64,000 nucleotides of DNA from Betaproteobacteria bacterium (GTDB lineage Bacteria > Pseudomonadota > Gammaproteobacteria > Burkholderiales > Burkholderiaceae_C): NCBI GenBank assembly GCA_016868355.1, contig VGHB01000003.1, forward strand, positions 62,001 through 126,000, read 5' to 3'. This document shows positions 18,867 through 39,227 of the stretch, piece after piece. The first letter of the stretch is position 1. Each line of letters begins with the position of its first letter. Both the position numbers and the translations under genes were made by a program. The notes beneath the pieces were generated by a model. The model saw nothing but the letters and a program-made list of their open reading frames with translations. It did not search any database and had not been told where the DNA came from.

Positions 18867-19109
18867 TCAGCGCAGGTACACCTCAACCAAGCCCTTGAGC
18901 TTGAGAAGCAGAGGGCGGCCATAGCGGTCTACGGTCTTGCCCGAGGGCACCTTGATCCAGCCTTCGCTGATGCAGTATTCCTCCACATCGGAACGTTCGT
19001 GGCCGTTGAAGCGGATGCCGATGTCGTGTTGCATCAGTTCGCGCACATGGTGGGGGCTGCGGGGGTCGGTGGACAAGCGGTCAGGCAGGATGGGGGCAGA
19101 TGGGCTCAT
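18867..19109 (-). CDS. DUF3297 family protein
   Basis: An 80-residue soluble protein matching my memory of DUF3297 proteins: PDRLSTDPRSPHH, then GIRFNGHERSDVEEYCISEGWIKVP and LKLKGLVEVY near the end. The function of the family is not known. Convergent with the TonB receptor gene (four bases between the stops) and divergent from the FAH-family gene. Confidence 0.8.
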   Translation of the reverse strand: MSPSAPILPDRLSTDPRSPHHVRELMQHDIGIRFNGHERSDVEEYCISEGWIKVPSGKTVDRYGRPLLLKLKGLVEVYLR

Positions 19110-19219
19110 GCCGGCGATTGTCGTCTCGTCGCACCCTTGTCAGAGGGCCGCACTGGGAAGTCGGGCGTGTGCTGTAGATTCGAGGCTCAGCCCAGGTGCG
19201 GCTGCCGCGGTCACCAAAT

Positions 19220-20074
19220 ATGAAGCTCCTTCGACATGGCCCCACGGGCCAGGAAAAGCCCGGCCTCCAAGACGATCAGGGGCATGTTCGAGACTTGTCG
19301 GGCCTGCTGCCTGACATCACACCTGAGCGCTTGTCGCCTGTCTCACTGGCGGCACTGGCGCGCAAGGTCACCAACCACGGGGAGGCTCTGCCTGTGGTGC
19401 CCCACGGCACAAGGCTGGGCCCACCTGTAGCGGGCATTCGCCAGTTCCTGGGGATTGGCCTGAACTACCGCCAGCATGCAATCGAAGCAGGCATGGCCAT
19501 CCCTACCGAGCCCATCGTGTTTTCCAAAAGTATCACCACGCTGGCCGGGCCCGATGACGACCTGCCACTGCCCGCCGGCTCGGCGGCCCTGGACTACGAG
19601 GTAGAGCTGGGCATCGTGATCGGCACCACCGTGCGGCGGGTGGCACTTGCCGACGCCCTTGGCCATGTAGCGGGCTATGTGCTGGCCAACGACGTCAGCG
19701 AACGTGACTGGCAACTTCACCGCGGGGGCCAGTGGCTCAAAGGCAAGTGCCACGACGGGTTTGGCCCCATCGGGCCTTGGTTGGTGACCGCCGATGAGGT
19801 GCCTGACCCACAGCAGGTTGGCCTGCAGCTGAGGGTGAACGGCGAAGAACGACAAAACAGCAGCACCGGGGACATGATCTTCGGCGTGGCCGAGATTGTG
19901 AGCTATCTCAGCCAGTTCATGACCTTGCTGCCCGGTGACGTGATCGTCACCGGCACGCCTCAGGGCGTCGGCATGGGCTTCAAACCCCCGAAGTACCTGC
20001 AGCACGGCGATGTGGTGGAGCTGTTCAGCCCCCAGTTGGGCCGGCAGCGCCAGCGCGTGGTGTCCCTGGGGTGA
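19220..20074 (+). CDS. Fumarylacetoacetate hydrolase family protein
   Basis: A 284-residue FAH-fold enzyme that hydrolyses or decarboxylates a diketo acid with a divalent metal. Seen: GIGLNYRQHAIEAG, then the metal-binding acidic set in DYEVELGIVIG, then NDVSERDWQ and GDVIVTGTPQGVGMGF. The pattern resembles 2,4-diketo-3-deoxy-L-fuconate hydrolase and proteins often labelled ureidoglycolate lyase; substrate is not decidable. The stop overlaps the GTG start of ureD by four bases, so it is translationally coupled to a urease accessory gene, an unusual partnership. Start at 19220 follows no clear ribosome site. Confidence 0.85.
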   Translation: MKLLRHGPTGQEKPGLQDDQGHVRDLSGLLPDITPERLSPVSLAALARKVTNHGEALPVVPHGTRLGPPVAGIRQFLGIGLNYRQHAIEAGMAIPTEPIVFSKSITTLAGPDDDLPLPAGSAALDYEVELGIVIGTTVRRVALADALGHVAGYVLANDVSERDWQLHRGGQWLKGKCHDGFGPIGPWLVTADEVPDPQQVGLQLRVNGEERQNSSTGDMIFGVAEIVSYLSQFMTLLPGDVIVTGTPQGVGMGFKPPKYLQHGDVVELFSPQLGRQRQRVVSLG

Positions 20075-20928
20075 GCCCATCCGCGGCATCGCAGCCGCAT
20101 TGGAAAGGCTCGCTGCGGCTCGATTACCGCTGGGACCAGGGCCGCACCGTAGCGCGCGACTGGCACGAAGGGCCCTTGCGTGTGCTCAAGGCTCTGTACC
20201 CCGACGGCCCCCACACCTGTGAACATGTCTTGGTGCACCCGCCAGGTGGCTTGGTGGGCGGCGACGAGTTGCGCATCGACGCCCACCTGGGCGCGGGCAG
20301 CCGCGTGCGACTGACCACACCAGGGGCCACGCGCTTCTACAAAAGCCTGGGGCCTGCGGCGGTGCAGCGGGTGTCGCTGCGGGTGGATGAAGGCGCCCGC
20401 CTGGAATGGTTGCCCCTGGAGACCCTGGCCTACAACCGCTGCCGGGCCGTCAACGAGTGCCGATTTCGCCTGGCTGCCGGCGCGCAGATGATCGGCTGGG
20501 ACCTGTGCTGCCTGGGCTTGCCGGCCTCGGGTGACGGCTTTGAACACGGTGAGGTGCTGCAACACCTGGAGATCGAAGGCTGCTGGTTGGAGCGCGGCCT
20601 GCTGCGTGCCGACGACCGCTTGCTGCGCAAATCCGCTTTGGGCCTGGATGGGCAGCCAGCGGTGGCCAGCCTCTGGTGCGCCAGCGGCTCTGCCTGGACC
20701 GAGGCGCAGCGCCAAACGCTGCAGGACACGGCGCTGCACACCTTGGCCCAAGGAGGTGCCGTGCTGCACGCCTATGGCGTCACGAGCCCCAATGACCAGG
20801 TGGTGGTGCTGCGCGCCTTGGCGCACCGGGTCGAGCCGGTTTTCGATCGGTTTCAGCAGGTTCGACAGGCTTGGCACCAGGCGCTGTGGAGCACAGCAGC
20901 GAGCCAGCCGCGCTTGTGGCACCTGTAG
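20071..20928 (+). CDS. ureD: Urease accessory protein UreD
   Basis: A 285-residue scaffold that binds apo-urease and, with UreF and UreG, delivers nickel to the active site. Typical stretches are LFRSLYPEG-like LKALYPDGPHTCEHVLVHPPGG, TTPGATRFYKS and LEWLPLETLAYN. Starts at a GTG overlapping the upstream hydrolase stop. It is separated from the other urease genes by the urtEDCBA operon on the opposite strand, with ureABCEFG resuming 6 kb downstream. Confidence 0.93.
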   Translation: MSPSAASQPHWKGSLRLDYRWDQGRTVARDWHEGPLRVLKALYPDGPHTCEHVLVHPPGGLVGGDELRIDAHLGAGSRVRLTTPGATRFYKSLGPAAVQRVSLRVDEGARLEWLPLETLAYNRCRAVNECRFRLAAGAQMIGWDLCCLGLPASGDGFEHGEVLQHLEIEGCWLERGLLRADDRLLRKSALGLDGQPAVASLWCASGSAWTEAQRQTLQDTALHTLAQGGAVLHAYGVTSPNDQVVVLRALAHRVEPVFDRFQQVRQAWHQALWSTAASQPRLWHL

Positions 20929-20938
20929 GGGCACCCCT

Positions 20939-21652
20939 TCAGATGGCCATCATCGCCTTGACGCCGTCGCGCGCCATGTGGGCCCCCAGGCCCTGCGCAA
21001 TCACGCGGCCTCGCTCCAGCACCACGTAGCGGTCGGCCAATTCAGCGGCGAAGTCGTAGTACTGCTCCACGAGCAATACCGCCATCGGCCGACCGTCCAG
21101 GCCCTGTTGAGCCAGCCGGCGCAAGACCCGGCCAATGTCCTTGATGACGCTGGGCTGGATGCCTTCGGTGGGCTCATCGAGCATCAGCAGCGAAGGCCGG
21201 CCCGCCAGGGCGCGTCCGATGGCCAACTGCTGCTGCTGCCCGCCCGAAAGGTCGCCACCGCGGCGCTCGCGCATTTGCAGCAAAACGGGGAAGATCTCAA
21301 AGATTTGCGGCGGCAGTGGTGCGGCGCGCGGCGCGGCCGACAGGCCCATCTGCAGGTTCTCCATCACGGTCAAGCGCCCGAAGATTTCACGGCCCTGTGG
21401 CACATAGCCCAGGCCGGCGCGTGCGCGTGCGTGCGGCGGCAAGCGGCTGATGTCCTGCCCTTGCCAGTCCACCCGGCCCTCGCGCAGCGCCACCACGCCC
21501 ATTAAGGCCTTCAGCAGGGTGGTTTTGCCCACACCGTTGCGGCCCAGCGCCACCGTGATCTGGCCAGGCGCCACGCTCAGGTCGATACCGCGCAGGGTGT
21601 GCGAGCCACCGTAGTACTGGTGCAGGCCCTGGGCCCGAAGCTCAGCGACCAA
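20939..21652 (-). CDS. urtE: Urea ABC transporter ATP-binding subunit UrtE
   Basis: A 237-residue LivF-type ATPase of the urea importer. QYYGGSHTLRGIDL near the start is typical of UrtE; Walker A is GRNGVGKTTLL, signature LSGGQQQQLAIGRAL and Walker B LLMLDEPTEGIQP. The start taken is the TTG at 21652: GGAGG lies six bases upstream, and the family begins two or three residues before this motif. This start is inside the end of urtD (11-base overlap). Longer readings from ATG 21670 add residues read through the urtD tail. Confidence 0.9.
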   Translation of the reverse strand: MVAELRAQGLHQYYGGSHTLRGIDLSVAPGQITVALGRNGVGKTTLLKALMGVVALREGRVDWQGQDISRLPPHARARAGLGYVPQGREIFGRLTVMENLQMGLSAAPRAAPLPPQIFEIFPVLLQMRERRGGDLSGGQQQQLAIGRALAGRPSLLMLDEPTEGIQPSVIKDIGRVLRRLAQQGLDGRPMAVLLVEQYYDFAAELADRYVVLERGRVIAQGLGAHMARDGVKAMMAI

Positions 21653-22529
21653 GGTACACCTCCACCACATGCGAGTTTGCTTGTACCGTGGCCAGGGTGC
21701 CCTCGGCCAGCACGCTGCCCTCGTGCAACACGGTAACAGTGCGGTGGCCCTGGGTGAGCTGCTCCACGAAGTGCATGTCGTGCTCCACCACCACAAGGCT
21801 GTGTTCGCCCTGCAGGCTCAGAAACAGCTCGGCCGTGCGCTCGGTTTCCTCATCGGTCATGCCGGCCACCGGCTCATCCAGCAACAGCAAGGCCGGGTCT
21901 TGCATGAGCAGCATGCCGATCTCCAGCCACTGCTTCTGGCCATGCGATAAGAGCCCGGCTTCGCGGCCCGCTTCGCCGCGCAACTGGATACGGCTGAGCA
22001 TCGCGTCGAGTGTGTCCACCTGTTCACCGCTCAAGCGTGAACCCAAAGACGAGCGCACGCGCCGATCAGCCTTGAGCGAAAGCTCCAGGTTTTCCAAGAC
22101 CGACAGGGGCTCGTAGACCGTGGGCTTTTGAAACTTTCGGCCGATGCCGGCCTGCGCGATCTCGTTCTCGCGCAGCTTCAAGAGGTCGATGGTGGACCCA
22201 AAGAAGGCGGTGCCTGCGTCGGGTCGCGTCTTGCCGGTGATGACATCCATCATGGTGGTTTTGCCCGCGCCATTGGGCCCAATGATGCAGCGCAATTCGC
22301 CCACAGCGATCGATAGGCTCAAAGCATTGAGCGCCTTGAAGCCGTCAAAGCTCACGTTGATGTCGTCGAGGTACAGCGCCACACCGTGGGTGAAGTCGGG
22401 GCCCTGCCCTCGATGCACACGTCCAATGCCCGCGCTGCGGCCACCAGACTCAGTCTGGCCCCCATGCTGCGCGCGGGACTGGTGTTCCTGCAGGCGGCGA
22501 GCACCGGCCTCGAGAAGGTCCGGGGTCAT
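21642..22529 (-). CDS. urtD: Urea ABC transporter ATP-binding subunit UrtD
   Basis: A 295-residue LivG-type ATPase. Walker [15 protein letters not shown]-loop GRKFQKPTVYE (the UrtD signature), LLSHGQKQWLEIGMLL as the ABC signature and LLLDEPVAGMTDEE as Walker B. About 45 extra residues (Gln/Gly/Arg-rich) precede the domain compared with usual UrtD. The ATG at 22529 overlaps the urtC stop (ATGA), supporting the long form. Confidence 0.93.
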   Translation of the reverse strand: MTPDLLEAGARRLQEHQSRAQHGGQTESGGRSAGIGRVHRGQGPDFTHGVALYLDDINVSFDGFKALNALSLSIAVGELRCIIGPNGAGKTTMMDVITGKTRPDAGTAFFGSTIDLLKLRENEIAQAGIGRKFQKPTVYEPLSVLENLELSLKADRRVRSSLGSRLSGEQVDTLDAMLSRIQLRGEAGREAGLLSHGQKQWLEIGMLLMQDPALLLLDEPVAGMTDEETERTAELFLSLQGEHSLVVVEHDMHFVEQLTQGHRTVTVLHEGSVLAEGTLATVQANSHVVEVYLGR

Positions 22530-23710
22530 GTGCGCTGCTCCTGCTTCGCCACGGCCGCGCGCCCCGACCACTTCGCCTTCACGGTGCCCACCAAGCTCAC
22601 AAGCCCGCCCGGCAGCACCAACGTCACCAAAATGAACAGCGTGCCCAGGAAGTACAGCCAGTACTCGGGGAACACCTGGGTGAACCAGCTTTTGGCGCCG
22701 TTGACGAAGAAGGCACCCACGATGGGCCCGATCAAGGTACCGCGGCCACCGACCGCAGCCCAGATCGCCATTTCAATGCTGGCGGCAGCCGACATCTCGC
22801 TGGGGTTGATGATGCCCACCTGGGGCACGTACAGCGCACCGGCCACGCCGCACATCACGGCCGACAGGGTCCAAATCGCCAGCTTGTAAGACACCGGGTC
22901 GTAGCCGCTGAACATCACCCGGCTTTCGGCGTCGCGTATGGCCTGCAGCACTCGCCCAAACTTGCTAACCACGATCCAGCGCGAAAGAAGGAAGAAGCCC
23001 AGCAGCACCGAGCCGGTCAGCGCAAACAAGGCCAGCCGCGTGGAGGTCTGCTGCAGCGGAATGCCCAAGATGCGCTTGAAGTCGGTGAAGCCGTTGTTAC
23101 CGCCAAAGCCGGTTTCATTTCGGAAGAACAGCAGCATGGCAGCGAAAGTCAACGCCTGCGTGATGATGGAAAAGTAGACCCCCTTGATGCGGGAGCGAAA
23201 AGCAAACCAGCCAAACACATAGGCCAGCAAGCCCGGCACCAGCAGCACCATCAAGGCCTGAAAGACAAAGGAGTCGCTGAAGGTCCAGTGCCAGGGAAAG
23301 GCCTTCCAGTCCAGGAACACCATGAAGTCGGGTAGGTCTGCCTGGTACTGTCCGTCGCGGCCAATTTGGCGCATGAGGTACATGCCCATGGCATAACCGC
23401 CGAGGGCAAAAAACAGGCCGTGGCCCAATGAAAGGATGCCGGTGTAGCCCCAGATCAGGTCCATGGCCAAGGCACAGACGGCATAGCACATGATCTTGCT
23501 GATGAGGGCCACGGCATAGTCACTCAGGTGCAGTGCGTGGGCCGGCGGCACTAGGCCGTTGAGCACGGGCACCAAGACGAGCACCGTGATGAGCGCCGCG
23601 GCCACGCCCGCCCAGCCCTTGGGGCCCAAGAGCCGTGCGCGCGAGGGGTCCACCACAGCGCAGGCCATAACATTCAAGCCGGTGGTGTCGACAGTGCTTG
23701 CGGTGTTCAT
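22526..23710 (-). CDS. urtC: Urea ABC transporter permease UrtC
   Basis: A 394-residue LivM-type membrane permease. Several hydrophobic helices; DLIWGYTGILSLGHGLFFALGGYAMGMYLM is the LivM/UrtC signature region (residues roughly 95-125), and FGRVLQAIRDAESR marks the cytoplasmic coupling loop. ATG 23710 follows GAGGAGCC; an upstream reading from 23824 is not supported. Sits ten bases after urtB. Confidence 0.93.
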   Translation of the reverse strand: MNTASTVDTTGLNVMACAVVDPSRARLLGPKGWAGVAAALITVLVLVPVLNGLVPPAHALHLSDYAVALISKIMCYAVCALAMDLIWGYTGILSLGHGLFFALGGYAMGMYLMRQIGRDGQYQADLPDFMVFLDWKAFPWHWTFSDSFVFQALMVLLVPGLLAYVFGWFAFRSRIKGVYFSIITQALTFAAMLLFFRNETGFGGNNGFTDFKRILGIPLQQTSTRLALFALTGSVLLGFFLLSRWIVVSKFGRVLQAIRDAESRVMFSGYDPVSYKLAIWTLSAVMCGVAGALYVPQVGIINPSEMSAAASIEMAIWAAVGGRGTLIGPIVGAFFVNGAKSWFTQVFPEYWLYFLGTLFILVTLVLPGGLVSLVGTVKAKWSGRAAVAKQEQRT

Positions 23711-23720
23711 CGTGGGCTCC

Positions 23721-25436
23721 TCAGGCTTCAGCCGAACGGCCACGCATGGCAAACAGCCCCTGCGGCCGCTTCTGGATGAACAGCACGATGAACACCAAGA
23801 CCATGATCTTGGCCAACACCGCACCCGCCCAGTCTTCCAACAGCTTGTTGAGCACCCCTAGGCCCAAGCCCGCAATCACAGTTCCTGCCAATTGACCCAC
23901 GCCGCCTAGCACCACCACCATGAACGCGTCCACGATGTAGGCCTGCCCCAAATCGGGCCCCACATTGCCCACCTGGGAAAGGGCGCAGCCGGCCAGGCCC
24001 GCAATGCCCGAGCCCAGCGAAAAGGCCAAGGTGTCCACACGCGCCGTGTTCACGCCCACACAGGAAGCCATGCGGCGGTTTTGGGTGACACCCCGCACCA
24101 TCAGCCCCAAGCGGGTGCGGGCAATCAACTGCGCCACCGCCAACAGCACCAAGGCTGCGAACACGATGATCACCAGGCGGTTGTAGGGCAGCGTGAGATT
24201 GGGCAGCACCGCCAAGCCCCCGCTCATCCAGGACGGGTTTTCCAGCGGCACGTTCTGCGCACCAAAGAGGCTGCGCACGGCCTGAATCAAGATCAGGCTG
24301 ATGCCCCACGTGGCCAAGAGCGTCTCCAATGGACGGCCATAGAGCCACCGCAGCACGGTGCGCTCCAGCGCCGCCCCGACCAGGGCAGCCGACGCAAAGG
24401 CCGCGGGCACCGCCGCCAACACATAGAAATCGAACAAGCCCGGCAGCCACTGGCGAAACGCGCCTTGCACCAGCCAGGTCGCATACGCCCCAATCATCAT
24501 CAACTCGCCGTGGGCCATGTTGATCACGCCCATCAAGCCGTAGGTGATGGCCAGGCCCAAAGCCACGATCACCAGGATAGACCCCAGGCTGATGCCAGAA
24601 AACACAATGCCCAGACGATCGCCCCAGGCCAAGCGGGATTCGATGGCCGTCACTGCACGCGCCAATGCAGCACGCACCTGCGCATCGGTTTCAGCCCCGC
24701 CGCTCATCCGTTCCTGCAAAAGGCTGCGCACCGAGGGTTCGCCACTTTGCGCCAAACGCTGCACGGCCGCCAAGCGTTGGGCCGCCTCGGGTGCAGCCAC
24801 CGAAGCTAGGGCTTGCAGCTTTTCCAAAGCGTTGCGGAGTTCGGGCGAGGTTTCGGCGGCCAGCGCCTTTTCAACCAAGGCCAACTGCGTGGCGTCGACG
24901 CCAGCGGTGGTGAGCTGACGGATCGCCTGGGTGCGCACCGCCAGGTCCGCGGACAACAGGTTCAGGCCCGACTGAACCGCCGAAATAGCGCTGCGCAGCC
25001 GGTTGTTGATCAGCGCCTCTTGCGCGTCGGCGGGCAAGGCAGCCAGCGCAGCGCCGCCAGCCACACGCACGTTTGGACCCCGGACCACGAAGGCTTGGCT
25101 GGCGTTGGCCTTGACCTCACCATCCTCCAAGGCCTTGAGGAAGTCGCCCAAACCCGCATCGCCACGGGCAGCAGCATCTTGCAGTGCCTTGAGCCGGTCG
25201 TCGGTGTCGCCCACCGCGATGGCATGGGCCTGCTGTGGTGTCAGCGCCTGGGCTTCAGCGGCGCCAGGGCCCCATACGCCCAAGCCGCAGGCGATCCCAA
25301 CGAGAACACTCAGCGCCCGAGCACGCGCCGCGCGCGAACACCCTGCCAGGTGGCTGAGGTCGCACCGGCCAAGGCGCTGGGCAAAACCAACCACCGCCCG
25401 GTGGCAGAGCCACCGGGCCTCGGGCAGAAGGCTCAT
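23721..25436 (-). CDS. urtB: Urea ABC transporter permease UrtB
   Basis: A 571-residue LivH-type permease with the long N-terminal extracytoplasmic domain that distinguishes UrtB. A hydrophobic leader (SVLVGIACGLGVWGPGAAEA) is followed by about 200 mostly helical residues and then the membrane part with GITYGLMGVINMAHGELMMIGAYAT-like sequence and RPLETLLATWGISLIL. ATG 25436 is used; a TTG at 25466 is the alternative. The n-region before the leader is unusually long (about 40 residues). Confidence 0.9.
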   Translation of the reverse strand: MSLLPEARWLCHRAVVGFAQRLGRCDLSHLAGCSRAARARALSVLVGIACGLGVWGPGAAEAQALTPQQAHAIAVGDTDDRLKALQDAAARGDAGLGDFLKALEDGEVKANASQAFVVRGPNVRVAGGAALAALPADAQEALINNRLRSAISAVQSGLNLLSADLAVRTQAIRQLTTAGVDATQLALVEKALAAETSPELRNALEKLQALASVAAPEAAQRLAAVQRLAQSGEPSVRSLLQERMSGGAETDAQVRAALARAVTAIESRLAWGDRLGIVFSGISLGSILVIVALGLAITYGLMGVINMAHGELMMIGAYATWLVQGAFRQWLPGLFDFYVLAAVPAAFASAALVGAALERTVLRWLYGRPLETLLATWGISLILIQAVRSLFGAQNVPLENPSWMSGGLAVLPNLTLPYNRLVIIVFAALVLLAVAQLIARTRLGLMVRGVTQNRRMASCVGVNTARVDTLAFSLGSGIAGLAGCALSQVGNVGPDLGQAYIVDAFMVVVLGGVGQLAGTVIAGLGLGVLNKLLEDWAGAVLAKIMVLVFIVLFIQKRPQGLFAMRGRSAEA

Positions 25437-25478
25437 ACCGATCGATGCGGATCCAGCTGCGGGCAAGGATGGCCGCGA

Positions 25479-26541
25479 TCAGGACTTCTTCGGTGCCGTC
25501 ACCGGCTCGTCCTTCTTGCCCTTGTTCTCGGGAATAAAGGGGCTCCAAGGCTGCGCCTTCACAGGGCCGGGCGTCTTCCACACCACACTGAACTGGCCAT
25601 CGGCCTTGACTTCGCCAATAAACACGCTCTTGTGCAGGTGGTGGTTTTTCTCGTCCATCTTAGAGGTGATGCCCGAGGGCGCGGTGAAGGTCTGGCCAGC
25701 CATGGCTGCAATCACCTTGTCGGCGTCGGTGGTCTTGGCCTTCTCCACAGCCTGCTTCCACATGTAGATGCCAATGTAGGTGGCCTCCATCGGGTCGTTG
25801 GTCAGCGGCTTATCCTTGTGACCCGGCAGGTTCTTGGCCTTGGCATAAGCGGACCACTTTTTGGTGAACTCGTCATTGGCCGGCGCCTTGATCGACATGA
25901 AGTAGTTCCAGGCGGCCAGGTGGCCCACAAGCGGCTTGGTGTCCACGCCGCGCAGTTCTTCTTCGCCCACTGAGAAGGCCACGACCGGTACGTCGGTGGC
26001 CTTTAGGCCTTGGTTGCCCAGCTCCTTGTAGAAGGGCACGTTGGAGTCACCATTGATGGTGGAAACCACTGCGGTCTTCTTGCCCTCGCCGGCGAACTTC
26101 TTGATCTTGGCGATGATGCCCTGGTAGTCGGCGTGGCCAAAGGGGGTGTACTCCTCCAAGATGTCGGCATCGGCCACACCCTTGCTCTTGAGGAACGCGC
26201 GCAGGATCTTGTTGGTGGTGCGCGGGTAGACATAGTCCGTGCCCAGCAACACGAAGCGCTTGGCGCTGCCGCCGTCCTTGCTCATCAGGTATTCCACGGC
26301 GGGAATGGCCTGCTGGTTGGGAGCTGCACCGGTGTAGAAGACGTTCTTGCTGAGCTCTTCGCCTTCGTACTGCACGGGGTAGAACAGCAGCGAGTTGAGC
26401 TCTTCATAGACCGGCAGCACCGACTTGCGGCTCACGCTGGTCCAGCAACCAAAGGTAACGGCCACCTTGTCTTTGCTAATGAGCTGGCGGGCCTTCTCGG
26501 CAAACAGCGGCCAATAACTTCAGGTGGTGACGGCGGTTCAT
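25479..26541 (-). pseudogene. urtA: urtA, urea-binding protein gene, internally deleted and frameshifted
   Basis: The gene for the periplasmic urea receptor is broken. ATG 26541, with GGAG nine bases upstream, opens MNRRHHLKLLAA, a normal UrtA signal-peptide beginning, but the frame stops at TAG 26478-26476 after 21 codons. The rest of UrtA runs in another frame: from 26513 it reads WPLFAEKARQLISKDK, then VAVTFGCWTSVSRKSVLPV and on to a normal C-terminus at 25479 (328 residues from GTG 26465). In intact homologues the WPLFAEK segment lies near residue 85, so about 75 codons including the signal-peptide end and first lobe strand are missing. TGGCCGCTG (26513-26505) fits both sides of the junction, suggesting deletion between short direct repeats. 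No exportable product seems possible. Assembly error is the alternative. Confidence 0.85.
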
Positions 26542-26626
26542 GAGTGGTTTCTCCAAAAAATTGCGCGACGATGAAGAGGCGCCCCTCGGGCGCTGCGGGA
26601 CTGCAAATAGAATTGCTGCTGCGTGC

Positions 26627-26642
26627 AGCAAAGGCCGTGCCA
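26627..26642 (-). promoter_or_regulatory. Sigma-54 (RpoN) -24/-12 promoter for urtABCDE
   Basis: Read on the minus strand: TGGCAC-GGCCT-TTGCT, an exact match to TGGCAC-N5-TTGCW with GG and GC separated by ten bases. It points toward urtA; transcription should begin about 12 bases beyond the GC, leaving a leader of about 75 bases before ATG 26541. rpoN itself is at 8091-9728. Confidence 0.8.
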
Positions 26643-26840
26643 ACCCCGCGCATTAGGAAAAGCTTGCTAATTGGCGTACCGACCCGCCTTAACAGCCTGT
26701 ACGGCACCGACTTGGGCGCCGGTGGCGCCCAAACGTGGGGCGCAGCGCGGCTGTGTGCGCCAAGCGCCACCTGCTTTGGTGCGCTGTTGGTGGCCGCCCG
26801 ACCCATGTTTACAGACCAACGGATCAAGACTGCAAAAGCC

Positions 26841-26869
26841 TTGCACCAAAGGCCCTGAACTTGCATAGA
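26841..26869 (+). promoter_or_regulatory. Weak sigma-70-like promoter candidate for ureA
   Basis: TTGCAC (26841-26846), 17 bases, then CATAGA (26864-26869), 31 bases before ureA. Only moderate agreement with consensus; the spacing is ideal. Confidence 0.3.
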
Positions 26870-26900
26870 CTGACACGGTCGCTCTGAACCAACAGCCACC

Positions 26901-27203
26901 ATGGACCTGACCCCGCGCGAAAAGGACAAGCTCCTGATCTTCACCGCTGCTTTGGTGGCCGAGAGGCGCCGCGCACGCGGGCTCAAGCTCAATCACCCAG
27001 AGGCGGTGGCCCTGATCACCGCGGCCATCATGGAAGGTGCGCGCGACGGCCGCACCGTGGCGCAGTTGATGAGCGATGGCAAACAAGTCCTGCGCCGAGA
27101 CGAGGTGATGGATGGCATTCCTGAAATGATTCCCGACATCCAGGTGGAAGCCACCTTTCCTGACGGCACCAAGCTGGTGACGGTTCACCAACCGATTGCC
27201 TGA
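26901..27203 (+). CDS. ureA: Urease subunit gamma
   Basis: A 100-residue structural subunit of the nickel enzyme that splits urea to ammonia and carbamate. The sequence is near-invariant for Ure[34 protein letters not shown] and the end [13 protein letters not shown]. Length is exactly usual. First gene of the plus-strand ureA-orf-ureB-ureC-ureE-ureF-ureG series. Confidence 0.97.
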
Positions 27204-27283
27204 GGCCGAACCAAAGCGTGCCGCTCGAATTCACGCCTCCGACAACCGAAAACCCTCCACCCGTCAACTTTGGAGACCCCAGC

Positions 27284-27511
27284 ATGAAGACCCCTAGCGC
27301 AGCACGCCGGTTTTGGCCCTACACCGCAGCCCGCCCAGCGGCCCTCGGCACAGCCACGGTTGTGGCGCTAGGACTGGTATCGCAGGTCGCCTGGGCCCAC
27401 GAGGGCCATGGCGCCTGGGGCGAGTTGCACGCGCACGGCGACACGCTGTGGGGCCTGGCCGCGCTGGCCGTAGCAGTGCTCGTGGGCTTGGTCTTGGGGA
27501 GGCGCAAGTGA
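27284..27511 (+). CDS. Small His-rich membrane protein between ureA and ureB
   Basis: A 75-residue protein of unknown family. A long signal-like segment (about residues 20-38, ending VSQVAWA) is followed by [15 protein letters not shown], with four His and two acidic residues in a short stretch, then one transmembrane helix ([18 protein letters not shown]) and a basic end (RRK). GGAG lies about ten bases before ATG 27284. Its stop overlaps the ureB GTG by four bases, so it is part of the urease operon. Position and His content suggest nickel binding or transport support, an inference only. The longer reading from 27218 is unlikely. Confidence 0.75.
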
Positions 27512-27816
27512 TCCCCGGCGAGCTCTTGTGCGACGACGGCGAGCACCTGCTCAACCCCGGACGCCGCACGCTGACCCTGGTGGTGCAGAACACGGGTGAC
27601 CGCCCGATACAAGTGGGTTCCCACTACCACTTTGCCGAAACCAACAGCGCCCTGCAGTTCGATCGCGTGGCAGCGCGTGGCATGCGGCTGAACATCGCCA
27701 GCGGGACGGCGGTGCGATTCGAACCCGGCCAACAACGCACCGTTGAACTGGTGGACTACGCAGGCGCTCGCCAGGTGTGGGGCTTTCGGGGCGATGTGCA
27801 AGGGAGTTTGTCATGA
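27508..27816 (+). CDS. ureB: Urease subunit beta
   Basis: A 102-residue structural subunit. From GTG 27508 it reads MIPGELL, then [28 protein letters not shown] and [18 protein letters not shown], all hallmark UreB. Both ends overlap neighbours by four bases (GTGA with the His-rich gene, ATGA with ureC), showing tight coupling. A longer frame from 27313 is only the open upstream part of that frame. Confidence 0.97.
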
Positions 27817-29570
27817 GCCGCATCGGGCGACGTGCTTACGCGGAGATGTATGGCCCCACCGTGGGCGACCGCCTGCGCCTGGCCGACACCGCCCTGGTCA
27901 TTGAGGTTGAACAAGACATGACCTTGCGCGCCGAGGGCTACGGCGAAGAGGTGAAGTTCGGTGGTGGCAAAACCATCCGCGATGGGATGGGCCAATCCCA
28001 GCGCCCAAACGGCCCGGGCATGAAGGACGCGGTGGATTGCGTGATCACCAACGCGGTGATCATCGACCACTGGGGCATCGTCAAGGCCGACATCGGCATA
28101 CGCGGCCAACGCATTGCGGCTATTGGCAAGGCCGGCAATCCCGATGTGCAGCCAGGCGTGGACATCGTGATCGGCCCGGGCACCGAAATCATCGCCGGCG
28201 AAGGCCTGATCGTCACACCCGGCGGCATTGACACCCACATCCACTTCATCTGCCCGCAGCAGATCGAAGAAGCGCTGTCCAGCGGCATCACCACCATGTT
28301 CGGTGGCGGAACGGGCCCAGCCACCGGCACCTTTGCCACCACCTGCACGCCCGGCCCCGAAAACATCGCGCGCATGCTGCAGTCTGCCGACGCCTTCCCG
28401 ATGAACCTGGGCTTCTTGGGCAAGGGCAACGCCAGCCGCCCGGAATCCTTGCGCCAGCAAATCGAGGCCGGCGTGGTGGGCATGAAGCTGCACGAGGACT
28501 GGGGCTCCACGCCCGCAGCCATCGACAACTGCCTCAGCGTGGCCGAGGAAACCGACACCCAGGTGGCCATCCACACCGACACGCTCAATGAAAGCGGCTT
28601 CGTGGAGGACACAATCGCCGCCTTCAAGGGCCGCACGATTCATAGCTTTCACACCGAAGGCGCGGGTGGTGGGCATGCGCCAGACATCATGAAGGTGGTG
28701 GGCCTAGACAACGTGCTGCCCTCCTCCACCAACCCCACACGGCCCTACACGGTCAACACCATTGACGAGCACCTGGACATGTTGATGGTGTGCCATCACC
28801 TGGACGCGGGCATCGCTGAAGACCTGGCTTTTGCCGAGAGCCGCATACGCCGCGAAACCATTGCAGCTGAAGACATCCTGCACGACCTGGGTGCAATCAG
28901 CATGTTCAGCAGCGACAGCCAGGCGATGGGCCGGGTAGGCGAGGTGATCATCCGCTGCTGGCAAACCGCGCACAAGATGAAGGTGCAGCGGGGCGGGCTG
29001 GGTAATGCCTCCATGCGCGGGGGCCTCTTGGGTGGAGACAACGACCGCCATGACAACGCGCGGGTCAAACGCTACATCGCCAAGCTGGCGATCAACCCGG
29101 CCCTGACCCATGGGATTGCTCACGAAGTGGGCAGCATCGCGCCAGGCAAGTGGGCCGACATAGTCTTGTGGCGGCCAGCCTTCTTTGGTGTGAAGCCCAG
29201 CCTGGTGCTCAAGGGGGGCCTCATTGCCATGGCCGCCATGGGCGACCCCAATGCCAGCATTCCGACGCCCCAGCCGGTGCACATGCGGCCGATGTTCGGT
29301 GCGTATGGTGGTGCGCGGGCAGCCACTTCGATCACTTTTCTGAGCCAGGCTGCTGTGGCTGCAAGCGTCCCGCAACGCTTGGGACTGCGCAAGGCAATTT
29401 CCTCGGTGCGGGGCTGCCGCGGCGTGCGCAAGGCCGACATGGTGCACAACGGCTGGACACCCCATATGGAAATTGATGCGCAAACGTATGAAGTGCGCGC
29501 CGACGGTGAGTTACTCAGCTGCGAGCCTGCTGACGAACTCCCCATGGCCCAACGCTACTTCCTCTTCTGA
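27813..29570 (+). CDS. ureC: Urease subunit alpha (catalytic)
   Basis: A 585-residue catalytic subunit carrying the two-nickel centre. Nickel ligands are all present: His142 and His144 (DTHIHF), the carbamylated Lys225 (GMKLHEDWG), His254 (AIHTDT), His280 (HSFHTEG) and Asp368 (SSDSQ). The flap MVCHHLD (His328-His329) is intact. It is about 15-18 residues longer than most UreC, chiefly because the segment after KVQRG (residues 395-416, Gly-rich) is about ten longer than in Klebsiella-type enzymes. Ends with the standard [10 protein letters not shown]. Confidence 0.97.
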
Positions 29571-29632
29571 CAGAAACCCCGGGCCCGGCCCCCATACTGA
29601 ACCTTGAGCGCGGACATGCGCGTAGCCTGCAC

Positions 29633-30187
29633 ATGTTGACGATACACAAGCTGATGAGCCAACCCAAGCTTGCGCCTGTGCTGCTGCAGCGCTTGGCAAC
29701 CGTGGAGCTGGACTGGGACACCCGACAGAGAAGCCGCTTCGAAGCCCTCGACTCTGATGGCGTGCGCCTGGCTGTGTTTCTGCCGCGGGGCAGCGTGGCT
29801 CGCGGTGGCGATGTGTTGGTGGCTGAGGACGGCTCGATGCGCCGCGTGCTGGCCAAGGCCCAAACGCTGATGAAGGCACGCATCTGCGCTGAACACGGCA
29901 GTGTCTTCGACCTGATGCGCGGTGCTTACCACCTCGGTAACCGGCACGTGCCTTTGGAGTTGCAACGCGATTGGCTCAAGCTGGAGGCCGACCCCGTGTT
30001 GGCCGAGCTCCTGGCGGGCTTGCACCTGATCGTGGAAACCGTGTCCGAGCCCTTCGAGCCTGAGGGGGGCGCCTATGGGCGCGGCGCGCTGATGGGGCAC
30101 GGACATGGACATCACCGTCATGACCACAGCCCGATGCACACACACCAGCACGCTGCTGAACACCGACATGACCCGACCGCCGGCTGA
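29633..30187 (+). CDS. ureE: Urease accessory protein UreE (nickel metallochaperone)
   Basis: A 184-residue chaperone that hands nickel to UreG/urease. The C-terminal domain shows YHLGNRHVPLEL with the conserved metal-binding His and PFEPEGGAYG. The tail after residue 155 is His-rich (GHGHGHHRHDHS, then HTHQHAAEHRHD), which usually stores extra nickel. The N-terminal peptide-binding domain is normal in length. The tail overlaps the start of ureF in another frame. Confidence 0.93.
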   Translation: MLTIHKLMSQPKLAPVLLQRLATVELDWDTRQRSRFEALDSDGVRLAVFLPRGSVARGGDVLVAEDGSMRRVLAKAQTLMKARICAEHGSVFDLMRGAYHLGNRHVPLELQRDWLKLEADPVLAELLAGLHLIVETVSEPFEPEGGAYGRGALMGHGHGHHRHDHSPMHTHQHAAEHRHDPTAG

Positions 30188-30887
30188 ACCGCCGCCCCCA
30201 GGGAGCCGTCAGCCACAGATCCTGCTGCAGTTGATGTGGTTGGCCTCTCCGGCTTTGCCAGTGGGGGGCTTCAGCTACTCAGAGGGCCTGGAGGCCGCTG
30301 TAGAGGCACGTCTGGTACACGATGAAATCAGTGCTTCGGTTTGGCTGTTGGACCAACTGCAGCTGGTTGTGATTCGCTCAGAGTGGGCGGCCGTGATGCG
30401 GGCGCACGCAGCCTTTGCGGCACACAACGCATCGGACATACAGACCATCAACGAGTGGGTGATGCACACGCGCGAGACACGCGAATTTCGTTTGCAAGCC
30501 GAGCAAATGGGGCGCTCTTTGGCCGACTGGCTGCTGCAACGCTACCCTCAAGAGTCCCGCGTTCAAGCCCTGCGCGCTCTGCGCCCGGCCCCGACATGGC
30601 CGGTGGCCTTCGCGCTGGCCGGTGTGCTGGCCGGTGCGCGGGTGGCTGATGTGTTGATGGCCCACGGCTTCAGCTGGGCAGAGAACCAGGTGCAGGCAGT
30701 GATCAAGTGCATACCGCTGGGCCAATCAGCGGGCCAGCGGGTACTGCAAAAACTCAGCCAGGCACTGCCCGGCGCGCTGCGCAGCCGATTGGAGACGCCG
30801 GTCGAAGAGGCCCAGGCCTACACCCCTGGCCTGGCCATCCACAGTGCTTGGCATGAGCAGCAGTATTCACGTTTGTTCCGTTCCTGA
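30168..30887 (+). CDS. ureF: Urease accessory protein UreF
   Basis: About 239 residues; acts with UreD as the GTPase-regulating part of the activation complex. LQLMWLASPALPVGGFSYSEGLEAAVE is the UreF N-terminal signature and the protein ends normally with AWHEQQYSRLFRS. ATG 30168 lies 20 bases inside the end of ureE; an in-frame ATG at 30105 would add 21 residues read from ureE's His codons and is less likely. Confidence 0.93.
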   Translation: MTRPPAEPPPPGSRQPQILLQLMWLASPALPVGGFSYSEGLEAAVEARLVHDEISASVWLLDQLQLVVIRSEWAAVMRAHAAFAAHNASDIQTINEWVMHTRETREFRLQAEQMGRSLADWLLQRYPQESRVQALRALRPAPTWPVAFALAGVLAGARVADVLMAHGFSWAENQVQAVIKCIPLGQSAGQRVLQKLSQALPGALRSRLETPVEEAQAYTPGLAIHSAWHEQQYSRLFRS

Positions 30888-30902
30888 ATTGAAAGAACCT
30901 CC

Positions 30903-31556
<654 letters not shown>

Positions 31557-31886
31557 GTGCCGCCGAGGGATGCGGTCACATGTCCATGGCCGGGCGGTGT
31601 TCCTCGCATGGTACGAAGCGCCAGCGGCCCACCAGCAAGAACAGCCAGGTGAACACCGCGGTGAATATCGGCGACACCAGCGCAGCTCCCGTGCCGGCAT
31701 CGCCCAGCAGGCGCGGGCGTCGGCGGGCCGCAACCGGCCCAGGCTCAGCGGCAGCTGCAAGTGGCGCGACGACGCCTCAAACAGGACGAGGCCTGGCTGC
31801 AGCAACGGCTGGCAGCCGTGGCCCAAGCCAAAGCAGCCCTGAACGCCAGCATGGGCAAGTTGAGCAACCCCTGCACAGAGCGGCGC
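31557..31886. other. Non-genic stretch between ureG and mnmE with coding relics
   Basis: About 330 bases with no convincing gene. On the minus strand, one frame ending at 31576 reads a membrane-like tail (SPIFTAVFTWLFLLVGRWRF, then VPCEEHRPAMDM) that opens after a stop and has only a GTG at 31677 as a possible start. On the plus strand, about 31730-31870 reads an Ala/Gln-rich coiled-coil-like segment (RQLQVARRRLKQDEAWLQQR) without a start of its own. Both could be decayed gene pieces. No terminator for ureG or mnmE is clear. Confidence 0.45.
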
Positions 31887-33299
31887 CTACTTCCCGATGC
31901 AAAAGCTGGAGAAGATGGCGCCCAGAAGGTCGTCGGCACCGACCTGCCCCGTGATCTCGCCCAGCGCAAGGTGGGCGCAGCGCAGCTCTTCGGCCAGCAG
32001 GTCCAGCGCCGGTTCGCGGTGCTGCATCTGCGCCTGGGCCTGCGCCAGGTACGCCGCTGAACGCTGCAAGGCCTGCAAGTGGCGGGTGCGGGCCAGGGCC
32101 ACGCCTTCGGGCATGGCCTGCCAGCCTGCGCGGGTCAACAAGGCCTGGCGCAGCGCATCCAGGCCTTGTCCAGTCTGGGCCGACACCGCCAAGGCCCCGC
32201 TTGGGCAGGCCTGCGGCGCCACCGCATCTGCTTTATTGAAAACGACCATCAGGCGCTCTTGAGGCACCCCTTGGGCCTGCAACGCTTGCACGATGGCCCG
32301 GTCGGCCTCATCGTAGGCCGCCTGGCCGCAGCGCGCGAGGTCGCGAACAAACAGGACCGCGTCAGCCCCGCGTATGGCCTCCCAGCTGCGCTGGATGCCG
32401 ATGCGCTCAACCTCGTCGCTGGCCTGCTCGGTGTGCCGCAGCCCTGCGGTGTCCACCACATGCAGCGGCACCCCTTGAATCTGTAGCACCTGCTCAATGC
32501 GGTCGCGCGTGGTGCCGGCCACGGGTGTGACGATGGCCACTGCCTGACCTGCCAGAGCGTTGAGCACCGAGCTCTTGCCCACATTGGGCTGCCCGGCGAT
32601 CACCACCCGCAGCCCCTCACGCAGCAGCACCCCCTGCCGCGTTTGGTCCATCACATCCTGCAGCGACTGCACGATGGCCTCAAGCTGCCCCTGGGCATCG
32701 GCCTTTTGCAGGAAGTCGATCTCTTCTTCAGGGAAGTCCAGCGTGGCCTCCACCAGCGTCCGCAGGCGCAGCAGGCGTTGCGCCAGCTCGTCGATACCTG
32801 ACGAAAACGCGCCCTGCAGGGACCGCGCGGCCGAGCGTGCAGCCGCCTGCGTGCCTGCGTCGATCAGGTCGGCCACCGCCTCGGCCTGCGCCAAGTCGAG
32901 TTTGTCGTTGAGGAAGGCGCGGCGCGTGAACTCGCCGGGCTCGGCCAGGCGCAAGTGCGGGAGAACGGGGCCTTGCTCAACCACAGCAGCTGCGGCCTGC
33001 AAGCAACGCTGCACCAACATTTGCAGCACCACAGGCCCGCCATGGGCCTGCAGCTCCAGCACGTCCTCACCCGTGTAGGAGTGCGGCGCCTCGAAGAACA
33101 GGGCCAGACCCTGGTCGATCGCCTGGCGCTGTTCGTCCAGGAACGCGGTGTAGGTGGCGCGCCGCGCCTCCAGCAGCCGGCCGCATAGGGCTTGCGCCAG
33201 GGGTCTCAGGCCGCGCCCCGACACCCGCACAATGCCCACTGCACCGCGACCCGGCGCAGTGGCCACCGCCACGATGGGGTCCAGATCGCCGGGCATCAC
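31887..33299 (-). CDS. mnmE: tRNA uridine-5-carboxymethylaminomethyl modification GTPase MnmE
   Basis: A 470-residue GTPase that with MnmG modifies the wobble uridine of several tRNAs. The N-terminal folate-binding part begins [22 protein letters not shown]; the helical domain follows; the inserted G domain contains [22 protein letters not shown] and NKAD; the chain ends with the invariant Cys in FCIGK. Length is normal. Three bases separate it from the yidC stop, so it is the last gene of the rpmH-rnpA-yidD-yidC-mnmE operon. Confidence 0.96.
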
Positions 33300-33302
33300 C
33301 CG

Positions 33303-35003
33303 CTACTTGCCAAGCACGCCCAACTGCTTGTTGATCATCCACTGCTGCGCGATCGACAGGATGTTGTTCGTCAACCAGTACAGCACCAGGCCGGCCGGGA
33401 AGAAGAAAAACATGAAGGAGAAGGCGATGGGCATGATCCACATCAGCTTGGCCTGCACGGGGTCTGGCGGCGTGGGGTTTAACCATGTTTGCAGCAGCGA
33501 GGACGCGGTCATCAACAGCGGCAGGATGAAGTAGGGGTCTTTGGCCGCCAGGTCGCTGATCCAGCCCACCCACGGCGCGTTTCGCATCTCGACGCTGGAC
33601 AGCAGCACCCAGTACAGGGCGATGAAAAAGGGCATCTGCACCAGGATGGGCAAGCAGCCGCCCAGCGGGTTGACCTTCTCTTCCTTGTAGATACGCATCA
33701 TTTCCTGCTGCATCTGTTGGGGCTTGTCTTTCAGGCGCTCGCGCATTTCCATGATGCGCGGGTTGATCGCCTTCATCTTGCCCATACTGCGGTAGGCGCT
33801 GGCGTTGAGCCAGTAAAACGCCGCCTTGAGCAGGAACACCAAGGCCACGATGGCCCATCCCCAGTTACCGATCACGCCGTGCAGCATGTCGAGCAGCCAG
33901 AACAGCGGCTTGGCCAGCACGGTGAACCAGCCGTAGTCTTTCACGAGCTCCAGGCCCGGGGCCAAGCCGGCGAGCTTCTTTTCTTCCTGTGGCCCGGCAA
34001 ACAGCCGCGCCTCATGGACTGCCTGCGCACCAGGCGCCACGGAGCCCAGGGGCACAACGGTAGCAATGGAGTACAGGTTGTCGCTCACTTTGGCGGTGCG
34101 GTACTCGCGCGCTTGGCGCTCAGCGAGGATCCAGGCCGCGGCGAAATAGTGTTGCACCATCGCCACCCAACCATCTTCAGCCGACTTCTCGTGCTCAGCC
34201 TTGTTCTTTTCGATGTCCTTGAAATCCAGCTTCTGGAACTTTTTGGCCTCGGTGTACAGGGCTGGGCCGGTGAAGGTGAAGTAGAAGGCCGACTCACCTG
34301 GAGGCGGATTGCCGTCTCGCACCAGCTGCAAGTAGAGCTGCGGCTCAATGGCCGCCTCGCCGCCGTTGAAAACCTCATGTTTGACGCCGATGGCGTAGTC
34401 GCCGCGCTTGAAGGTGTAGGTCTTGACGAGCTTGACGCCGCTGGCGGCCGCGGGGGTTTCGAAACGCACCACCAGGCTGGCCTGGCCGTCCTTGAGCTCG
34501 GTTTCTTGGCTGGCCAGCAGCAAGGTGCTCAGGTGGTTGGGCAGCACCACCCCCGCCTGGTTGGTGATCAGTCCCGTTTGGGCCAGGTACACCCGCTGGG
34601 CAGACTGGTCAAACAACACCACCTGGCGGTCGGGCACCTCAGGGTCGCGGTGACGCAACAGCTCAAGCTTTTGGAGCTCGCCACCCCGGGTGCTGAAGGT
34701 GGCCTTGACCAGGTCCGTGGTGACGGTGAAGGTTCGCGCCGAGGCTGAAGGCGCGCTGCCAGGGACGGCCGCTGCCGGGCCGGCGCCGGAGGAAAGCGCC
34801 GGTGTGGGCACCCCACCAGCCGAGGCCGACGGCACGGCCGCAGGTGCCGCGCCCACAGGGGCCTGTGGCGCTGGCGCAGCGGCCTTGGGTGCTGCTGGCG
34901 AGAACATCGAGGGTTGCCCGTTGTGTTTTTGCCAGGCGTCCCACAGCAACACAAGCGACATCGTGAAAATCACCCACAGCAGGGTGCGGCGCATATCGGT
35001 CAT
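33303..35003 (-). CDS. yidC: Membrane protein insertase YidC
   Basis: A 566-residue inner-membrane insertase/foldase. First membrane helix (LLWVIFTMSLVLLWDAW) with the conserved RRTLLWV start, then a Pro/Ala-rich linker, the large periplasmic domain and five C-terminal helices including PFFIALYWVLLSSVEMR and the Gly-Gly-Cys-Leu-Pro (GGCLPILVQM) loop. Start 35003 overlaps the yidD stop by four bases; ATG 34994 is an alternative nine bases in. Confidence 0.95.
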   Translation of the reverse strand: MTDMRRTLLWVIFTMSLVLLWDAWQKHNGQPSMFSPAAPKAAAPAPQAPVGAAPAAVPSASAGGVPTPALSSGAGPAAAVPGSAPSASARTFTVTTDLVKATFSTRGGELQKLELLRHRDPEVPDRQVVLFDQSAQRVYLAQTGLITNQAGVVLPNHLSTLLLASQETELKDGQASLVVRFETPAAASGVKLVKTYTFKRGDYAIGVKHEVFNGGEAAIEPQLYLQLVRDGNPPPGESAFYFTFTGPALYTEAKKFQKLDFKDIEKNKAEHEKSAEDGWVAMVQHYFAAAWILAERQAREYRTAKVSDNLYSIATVVPLGSVAPGAQAVHEARLFAGPQEEKKLAGLAPGLELVKDYGWFTVLAKPLFWLLDMLHGVIGNWGWAIVALVFLLKAAFYWLNASAYRSMGKMKAINPRIMEMRERLKDKPQQMQQEMMRIYKEEKVNPLGGCLPILVQMPFFIALYWVLLSSVEMRNAPWVGWISDLAAKDPYFILPLLMTASSLLQTWLNPTPPDPVQAKLMWIMPIAFSFMFFFFPAGLVLYWLTNNILSIAQQWMINKQLGVLGK

Positions 35004-35254
35004 GGAGGGGGTCCGTTGACAGTAGAAGAGGAAGCGGCGGGGACCGGGTCGTGGCCCCCGTCACACCAGGGGTGGCAGCGCAACACGCGCCAGCCAGCCA
35101 GCGCGGTGCCCCGCCAGGCACCGTGGCTTTCCAGAGCCTGCAAGGCATACACCGAGCAGGTGGGTGTGAAGCGACATTGTGTGCCAAGCCAGGGGCTCAA
35201 CAGCAGCCGATAGCCCTTGATAGGCCAAGACAGGATGCGGGCCATGGGGCTCAC
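35000..35254 (-). CDS. yidD: Membrane protein insertion efficiency factor YidD
   Basis: An 84-residue small membrane-associated protein. The signature YRLLLSPWLGTQCRFTPTCSVYALQAL with its Cys residues and CHPWCDGGHDPVP is diagnostic. The first ATG overlaps the rnpA stop and the last bases overlap yidC, both by four, so translation is coupled along the operon. Confidence 0.93.
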   Translation of the reverse strand: MSPMARILSWPIKGYRLLLSPWLGTQCRFTPTCSVYALQALESHGAWRGTALAGWRVLRCHPWCDGGHDPVPAASSSTVNGPPP

Positions 35255-35853
35255 AACCGGGCACCCCTTTGGCCATGGCGCACTATCGCGTGGCCCATCA
35301 GTTGCTGGAGTTCGTCACGAACCGCTTGCTTGAGGGATTCAGACGCCGCGCTGGGGAACTGGGTGCGGTCAAACCCGTGACGCAGGCGCACCACCCAAAT
35401 GCCCCCTGGCAGCCCTAAAACGCTGCCATGCTGATCGGCCAAGACCTGGCGCATTTGGCGCCGTATGAGGTTGCGGGTAACGGCACGGCGCGCGTGGCGC
35501 TTGGGGACCACGTAACCGGCCCAAACCCCTTGAGTTGGCGCCCCTTGCGGTTCAGTGGTGTCCCACGCCGCGGCGGTTGGGGCTTGCGTTGCATTGTCCA
35601 CGGGCTTGTCCACCGGGTTTTCAAATGACTTATCCACAGGCCCGTAGGACTCTGGCTCCGCTGCTGAGGATAACCCAGGTGCGCGGATGTGCCGGTTGGG
35701 GCGCGAGGCTGGCTCGAACAAATGGTGCAAGGCGAAGTGCGGGGTTTTCGCAAGCCACGGCCCAGCCATCGCGCGCTGGAAGTCTTCGGGCCTGTTCAAG
35801 CACTGCAGTTTCGGGCGTTCGCCAGGAGGCAACGGGGCGCTGGCCGGGATCAC
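35251..35853 (-). CDS. rnpA: Ribonuclease P protein component, with a large insertion
   Basis: Protein subunit of RNase P, which trims the 5' end of pre-tRNA. The RNR signature is clear (VVPKRHARRAVTRNLIRRQMR), as is the N-terminal FALHH strand. Between the two lies an insertion of about 53 residues (FEPASRPN to GVWAGY) that most RnpA lack, with repeated Pro-Val-Asp-Lys/Asn. The total of about 200 residues compares with about 120 usually. Start is uncertain: GTG 35853 with GAGGGG upstream is used; TTG 35904 and TTG 35799 are other options. The DNA of the insertion carries DnaA-box-like sites. Confidence 0.85.
   Translation of the reverse strand: MIPASAPLPPGERPKLQCLNRPEDFQRAMAGPWLAKTPHFALHHLFEPASRPNRHIRAPGLSSAAEPESYGPVDKSFENPVDKPVDNATQAPTAAAWDTTEPQGAPTQGVWAGYVVPKRHARRAVTRNLIRRQMRQVLADQHGSVLGLPGGIWVVRLRHGFDRTQFPSAASESLKQAVRDELQQLMGHAIVRHGQRGARL
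35594..35673. promoter_or_regulatory. Cluster of DnaA-box-like sites inside rnpA
   Basis: One exact DnaA box, TTATCCACA at 35630-35638, with TTGTCCACG (35594-35602) and TTGTCCACC (35606-35614) on the same strand at 12- and 24-base offsets, and TGAGGATAA (35665-35673, one mismatch) in the other orientation. Together they lie in the rnpA insertion about 0.6 kb from dnaA. Confidence 0.55.
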
Positions 35854-35945
35854 CGGGCGCCCCTCATGATCAATGCCTTTGGCTACTGCTGAATCGGGCG
35901 GCAATGCTGGCCTGCGGCAGACGGCTCAGGCGGCCCCGCGCCGCC

Positions 35946-36080
35946 TCAGGCGGCCAGACGCTTGCGGCCCTTGGCACGGCGCGCGCGGATCACGGCGCGG
36001 CCGCCGCGGGTCTTCATGCGAACCAGGAACCCGTGCGTGCGGGCACGGCGCGTCTTGGAAGGTTGGTAGGTGCGCTTCAT
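35946..36080 (-). CDS. rpmH: 50S ribosomal protein L34
   Basis: A 44-residue basic ribosomal protein: [21 protein letters not shown] followed by a Gly/Arg/Lys-rich end with [11 protein letters not shown]. The N-terminus is near-universal for L34. It heads the minus-strand operon next to the replication origin; rnpA follows within about 90 bases. Confidence 0.97.
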
Positions 36081-36212
36081 GGTTCAGGCCATAAATCGGG
36101 AAACCCTTAATTAGAACACCGCGCGTTCGGCTGGTCAAACCGAGCGAAGCGATCCCCAATGGCGGTGCCGCGAGCAGCGCACTTTGTCAAGGGGATGCAG
36201 CGACAAAAGCTC

Positions 36213-36221
36213 TGTGGATAA
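36213..36221 (-). promoter_or_regulatory. DnaA box upstream of dnaA
   Basis: TGTGGATAA, the reverse complement of the perfect consensus TTATCCACA, 62 bases before the dnaA start used here. Confidence 0.8.
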
Positions 36222-36273
36222 CCCTGCTTCACATGCCGAACGAATGTCTAAAATGCGGTTGCTCGACCTCTTG

Positions 36274-36282
36274 TTATCCACA
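36274..36282 (+). promoter_or_regulatory. DnaA box touching the dnaA start codon
   Basis: TTATCCACA ends at the base before ATG 36283. Besides origin function it could let DnaA limit its own translation start or promoter. Confidence 0.75.
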
Positions 36283-37740: not shown

Positions 37741-37756
37741 TGCTGCCGCACAAGTC

Positions 37757-37765
37757 TGGGGATAA
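37757..37765 (-). promoter_or_regulatory. Possible DnaA box after dnaA
   Basis: TGGGGATAA differs from TGTGGATAA at one position; it lies 17 bases after the dnaA stop in the dnaA-dnaN gap. Confidence 0.35.
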
Positions 37766-37915
37766 AACCTGTATGGATGTCGAACAAGAGCCTACTTGCT
37801 CACAGCCCCACTGGACGGCGGGAAGTTGTTGTATGGCACTCCCGCAGAAATACCGGCTCCGTACCCAGGGTTGTGGAGGGCCCAAGTCCTTGAACAATCA
37901 GGTGAAAATACGCTT

Positions 37916-37932
37916 TTCCACTGCCCGTGGAA
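37916..37932. repeat. Small hairpin upstream of dnaN
   Basis: TTCCAC (37916-37921), loop TGCCC, GTGGAA (37927-37932), about 40 bases before dnaN. The 230-base dnaA-dnaN gap otherwise holds the DnaA-box-like site and presumably the dnaN promoter. Confidence 0.35.
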
Positions 37933-37970
37933 GGCTCTATTTAGTTCTACCAATCTGAGAGATTGAAAAC

Positions 37971-39095: not shown

Positions 39096-39129
39096 CAGCC
39101 CCTTGCTCGCGCGCCATCACGGCGTGGGT

Positions 39130-39162: not shown

Positions 39163-39227
39163 CAGTTTCTTGAGGGCGGTACAGACAGATTCTCAGCACC
39201 GTTTTTCAATACCCGATAGGGCCCTAA

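Follow-up and report, generated by a model that had tools for sequence, protein, structure and literature searches.

Probable recent loss of the urea receptor gene urtA through a 212-bp deletion between short repeats in a Betaproteobacteria genome

The closest described systems are the UrtABCDE urea transporter (TIGR03407–TIGR03411) with its urease cluster, deletion between short direct repeats by slipped mispairing, and the recent bacterial pseudogene made by a frameshift. The last two are known kinds of event. The stretch analyzed here, 64,000 nucleotides from a Betaproteobacteria bacterium (the window), resembles the first in gene families, arrangement, and an upstream sigma-54-type site, and differs in its urtA, which is 212 bp short and carries a frameshift. 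As in slipped-mispairing deletions, the lost segment ends on a repeat of about 8–9 bp, with one copy kept and the intervening DNA gone; the locus differs in that the repeat is deduced from one relative, the ancestral sequence of the species being unseen. As in recent frameshift pseudogenes, the rest of the gene is undecayed and the neighbors are intact, whereas here the affected gene is the receptor of an otherwise complete transporter. We consider it highly probable that urtA is a recent null allele produced by a 212-bp short-repeat deletion. The deletion is probably real but an ordinary event, one more case of a well-known type, with a clear physiological prediction and little general surprise.

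The urtA frame and its neighbors

Feature coordinates are given in Table 1. On the minus strand, urtA opens with an ATG at 26541, preceded directly by TTTTTTGGAGAAACCACTC, a good ribosome-binding context. Its opening residues are MNRRHHLKLLAA, and the whole frame reads MNRRHHLKLLAAVCREGPPAH, ending after 21 codons in a premature stop at codon 22 (bases 26478–26476). The remainder of UrtA lies in a different frame. The W codon of its WPLFAEKARQ stretch has its first base at 26513, and the closest stop upstream in that frame is at 26522. This urtA therefore has no signal peptide joined to a single open frame, since the first frame stops at codon 22 and an in-frame stop precedes the remnant. This frame reading bears out the first-pass annotation, which had described urtA as broken between the ATG and an out-of-frame WPLFAEKARQ.

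The remnant ORF scored slightly below the curated TIGR03407 cut-off of 492.75 bits, and a six-frame search reading through a stop reached 494.5 bits. The profile is incomplete in the window under both searches, the match starting at position 49 (six-frame) or 53 (remnant ORF), as against positions 1–361 for the same-genus relative G001.

No internal stop was found in urtB–E or ureA–G, and all have family matches (ureD and ureF in Pfam only), in agreement with the earlier description of these genes as intact.

Table 1. Features of the urea transporter and urease region (window coordinates)
Feature	Coordinates	Strand	Evidence
ureD, urease accessory	20071–20928	+	PF01774, 161.8 bits; no NCBIfam match
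urtE, ATPase, intact (longest ORF)	20939–21796	−	TIGR03410, 321.4 bits
urtD, ATPase, intact (longest ORF)	21642–22571	−	TIGR03411, 365.4 bits; no internal stop
urtC, permease, intact (longest ORF)	22526–23824	−	TIGR03408, 446.8 bits; no internal stop
urtB, permease, intact (longest ORF; true start probably inside)	23721–25466	−	TIGR03409, 420.9 bits; no internal stop
Out-of-frame urtA remainder, 344 codons, open	25479–26513	−	TIGR03407 positions 53–361, 492.1 bits; Peripla_BP_5 positions 53–361
urtA start codon and 21-codon truncated frame with premature stop	26476–26541	−	ORF reading
Deletion junction TGGCCGCTG, 212 bp absent relative to G001 and G003	26505–26513	−	Alignment; junction pattern only in the window's genome (G000) among 399 genomes, own included
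Sigma-54-type promoter-like site TGGCACGGCCTTTGC upstream of urtA	26628–26642	−	Similar sites in G001 and G003
ureA, urease gamma	26901–27203	+	NF009712, 176.2 bits
ureB, urease beta, GTG start	27508–27816	+	NF009682, 162.2 bits on longer ORF 27313–27816
ureC, urease alpha	27813–29570	+	NF009686, 1028.2 bits on longer ORF 27777–29570
ureE	29633–30187	+	NF009762, 198.5 bits (below cut-off 221); NF009751, 146.9 bits (above cut-off 144)
ureF, longest ORF, overlaps ureE	30105–30887	+	PF01730, 123.8 bits; no NCBIfam match
ureG	30903–31556	+	TIGR00101, 323.4 bits

The promoter-like site, which we take to be of the sigma-54 type, begins 101 bp ahead of the urtA ATG. Similar sites lie ahead of the urtA ATGs of two same-genus relatives, at 97 bp in G001 and at 76 bp in G003, where the site departs from the strict pattern by one base. 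The motif alone has a chance expectation of 0.51 per window and was present in 40 of 100 shuffles; its place upstream of urtA in three genomes is better evidence for this putative site.

The deletion and its short repeat

The window's genome is 2.70 Mb in 40 contigs (99.99% complete, 0.21% contaminated), and the junction sits well inside a 225-kb contig. A urtA match was found in two of the four other genomes of the genus; across the retained part, DNA identity is 94% for G001 and 92% for G003. Both genes are intact, each 1275 bp or 425 codons including the stop. Against G001, the window's urtA aligned in two pieces, query positions 1–35 and 27–1063, with 9 nt of query overlap and a displacement of 212 bp. 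The retained 1035 bp aligned without gaps to both relatives. Because 212 is not a multiple of three, the deletion shifts the urtA frame. The lost segment encodes the signal peptide and the first part of the N-terminal lobe. Comparison with these two genomes supports the earlier reading of an internal deletion ending on a short direct repeat; its estimated size, about 75 residues or 225–230 bp, was slightly high.

The sole other same-genus urtA genes for the repeat comparison were those of G001 and G003. In G001, the 8-nt sequence TTGGCCGC stands at both deletion ends at an offset of 212. In G003, the 5′ site reads CTGACCGC, and no such repeat occurs at the deletion ends. The 5′ copy in G001 is TGGCCGCC, not TGGCCGCTG: the base after the 5′ TTGGCCGC is C rather than T, so TGGCCGCTG does not stand at both deletion ends in G001. 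Left of the junction, the bases TTA agree fully with neither G001 nor G003. We infer the repeat in the window's species from one relative, G001, and it is absent at the G003 5′ site.

The repeat survey was widened to 82 urtA genes, the best 80 of 594 relatives among the matches listed plus G001 and G003. The frame was open across the junction site in 81 of these 82. Of the 81 intact homologues, 46 carry TGGCCGCTG at the W codon, three in the 5′ stretch, and one at both. The 5′ count includes TGGCCGCTG anywhere in the 135 nt lying 50–95 codons before the W codon, and two of its three hits are possibly non-homologous in place. The single both-ends homologue (L042) has CTGGCCGCTG common to both ends at offset 212. 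Chance repeats in different registers reach greater lengths in other relatives, the longest being 12 nt (L033). The nine-base repeat earlier proposed for both ends is corrected to the 8-nt TTGGCCGC seen in G001, the exact TGGCCGCTG standing at both ends in 1 of 81 intact homologues.

The exception to the open frame is a urtA in the MAG Betaproteobacteria bacterium RYN_557 (L071, near 3346), with an in-frame TAA directly after its GCWTSVSR motif. This gene may be another broken urtA, or the stop may come from a consensus error.

End homology of at least 8 nt occurred in 38 of 78,925 breakpoint pairs of 50–399 bp in a 450-nt stretch of G001, a rarity that makes a repeat at the deletion ends by chance unlikely. 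The first 420 nt of G001 urtA hold five direct repeats of at least 8 nt (spacing at least 20), including TTGGCCGC. Two of them are 9 nt and one is 10 nt, and TTGGCCGC is not the longest in that part of the gene.

These observations are consistent with loss of a 212-bp segment between two copies of a short, TTGGCCGC-like direct repeat of about 8–10 bp. Slipped pairing in replication would be the simplest route, or else some other RecA-independent deletion between short repeats. Such a loss would remove the signal peptide and the N-terminal lobe start, shift the frame, and end translation at codon 22. Restart codons downstream would yield, at best, a cytoplasmic UrtA fragment.

The junction pattern, with two mismatches allowed, was found in 0 of 398 other genomes, many of them possibly without urtA; a reversed-pattern control gave one chance match. 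A scan of genome contigs that possibly left out the own genome gave no match for the pattern. In the literature search, no title among those listed pointed to such a urtA loss; papers naming urtA and pseudogenes were judged by title alone.

Probable recent loss and its alternatives

The retained 1035 bp of urtA contain no further stop or indel and have a dN/dS of 0.036 against G001 and 0.016 against G003. Unique synonymous and nonsynonymous changes number 36 and 4 in the window's genome, 19 and 4 in G001, and 38 and 1 in G003. If urtA had evolved neutrally along 10% of its branch, four or fewer nonsynonymous changes would have a probability of 0.005; for 5% of the branch, the probability is 0.25. 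This dating takes urtA synonymous sites as a fair clock, and urtA dS is lower than that of its neighbors. The genes urtB, urtC, urtD, urtE, ureA, ureB, ureC, and ureD are constrained (dN/dS 0.02–0.25), ureE, ureF, and ureG lying outside the compared stretches. With the remnant undecayed and urtB–E and ureA–G open, the urtA event is either recent or an artifact. With one genome per species, a recent loss and a strain-specific change look alike.

Within window positions 20939–26513, dS of urtA and urtB was 0.30 and 1.04 to G001, and 0.43 and 0.89 to G003. The low urtA value could stem from gene exchange, or from codon bias if the gene is highly expressed.

An artifact would mean that a chimera from the library, or a deleted variant present in a minority, entered the assembly while most cells keep an intact urtA. 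An undecayed remnant beside conserved urtB–E and compared urease genes is what such an artifact would leave, library chimeras, too, typically join at short repeats, and the junction is absent from the other genomes searched, the window's own genome being a draft of 40 contigs. Against this, common assemblers work with words much longer than 8–9 bp, which makes an ordinary assembly collapse on such a repeat improbable. The junction also lies inside a long contig of a nearly complete genome with little contamination, and the missing segment was found on no other contig. A 298-bp query spanning the lost segment gave strong matches in the assembly to the two retained ends only, the next match having an E value of 0.004 over 51 bp. 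We regard an artifact as unlikely.

Another receptor could now serve UrtBCDE and make urtA dispensable. A second five-gene transporter of the same superfamily, open and with its own receptor and permeases, lies upstream on the same contig (L124 3882–8700, G000:C3 about 49.9–54.7 kb), and further, weaker receptor-like matches are present in the genome. However, Peripla_BP_6 is the best match of the candidate receptor, its UrtA score is 72.9 bits where the cut-off is 492.75, and an alignment shows neither GCWTS nor FYPVQYEGEE in it. It also has permeases of its own, so that a takeover is very improbable. This transporter, of the urea or branched-chain amino acid type, adjoins amidase-like and peptidase-like genes (named by eye).

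A second urtA, suggested as a check by the first-pass annotation, was sought by profile search of the assembly. The sole match over the UrtA cut-off was the broken window gene. An AmiS/UreI channel (PF02293) gave no match in the genome, the control matching once, below cut-off. A UT channel (PF03253) also gave no match in the genome, but its control was equally silent everywhere, so that this result carries no information.

The short form might instead be functional, with an internal start at GTG 26465 or frameshifting producing a cytoplasmic urea-binding sensor or regulator like AmiC. The AmiC role is cytoplasmic, and AmiC is a homologue in a PDB sequence search (E 3e-40). The remnant is under strong purifying selection, and recency explains this equally well. 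The N-terminal lobe start is gone, and the junction is in no relative. GTG 26465 is the first possible in-frame start past the junction and has no clear ribosome site by eye. In the UrtA structure report, the residues given as close to urea are Trp120, Ser122, Tyr141, Gln144, Glu146, Tyr190, Phe192, Asn246, and Ser274 (PMC10392092). Matched to these by motif and alignment, GCWTS, YPVQYEGEE, DYVYP, NGDSN, and FSVGEE lie at G001 residues 102–265, all past the junction (residue 81), and are identical in the remnant. Such a function is likewise very improbable. Combining the two, an internally started cytoplasmic urea sensor under purifying selection beside a pump that uses another receptor, is scarcely credible.

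Consequences and genomic setting

Under recent loss by short-repeat deletion, periplasmic receptor function of the cut UrtA would not be expected, as it would lack export and part of a lobe. The UrtBCDE pump and urease would still be coded, and high-affinity urea uptake should be missing. The cell could still use urea produced internally or diffusing in from outside, and urtB–E expression may be lowered by polarity. If the deletion is real in the strain, this urease-positive bacterium is predicted to be unable to scavenge low urea, and the locus would clearly illustrate the one-step inactivation of a transporter by a short repeat within its receptor gene. It would also caution against taking urtB–E and urease in a genome as proof of urea uptake.

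Among the matches listed, 294 of the 296 genomes with UrtB over cut-off also had a UrtA match with an E value of 1e-60 or lower. The two exceptions, G051 and G173, are drafts 86% and 83% complete. At the same limits, 17 genomes among the matches listed have UrtA without UrtB, G001 being one of them because its contig ends. Because the family searches do not halt at stops, a broken urtA, such as that of the window, counts as present.

In the genus genomes G002 and G004, 76% and 90% complete, neither urtA nor urease alpha was detected, and urtB had no match over cut-off. With two of the five genus genomes (own counted) in this state, the use of urea may be patchy across the genus.

An RNA family scan of positions 19000–34000 gave a single match and none at urtA. 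The match, Rfam 5_ureB_sRNA (27974–28272, minus strand, 127.9 bits), is antisense to ureC and may be a mere echo of conserved urease coding sequence on the opposite strand. Window positions 31887–41759 hold genes reading by eye as mnmE, yidC, rnpA, dnaA, dnaN, and gyrB, which suggests a location close to the replication origin for the urea cluster.
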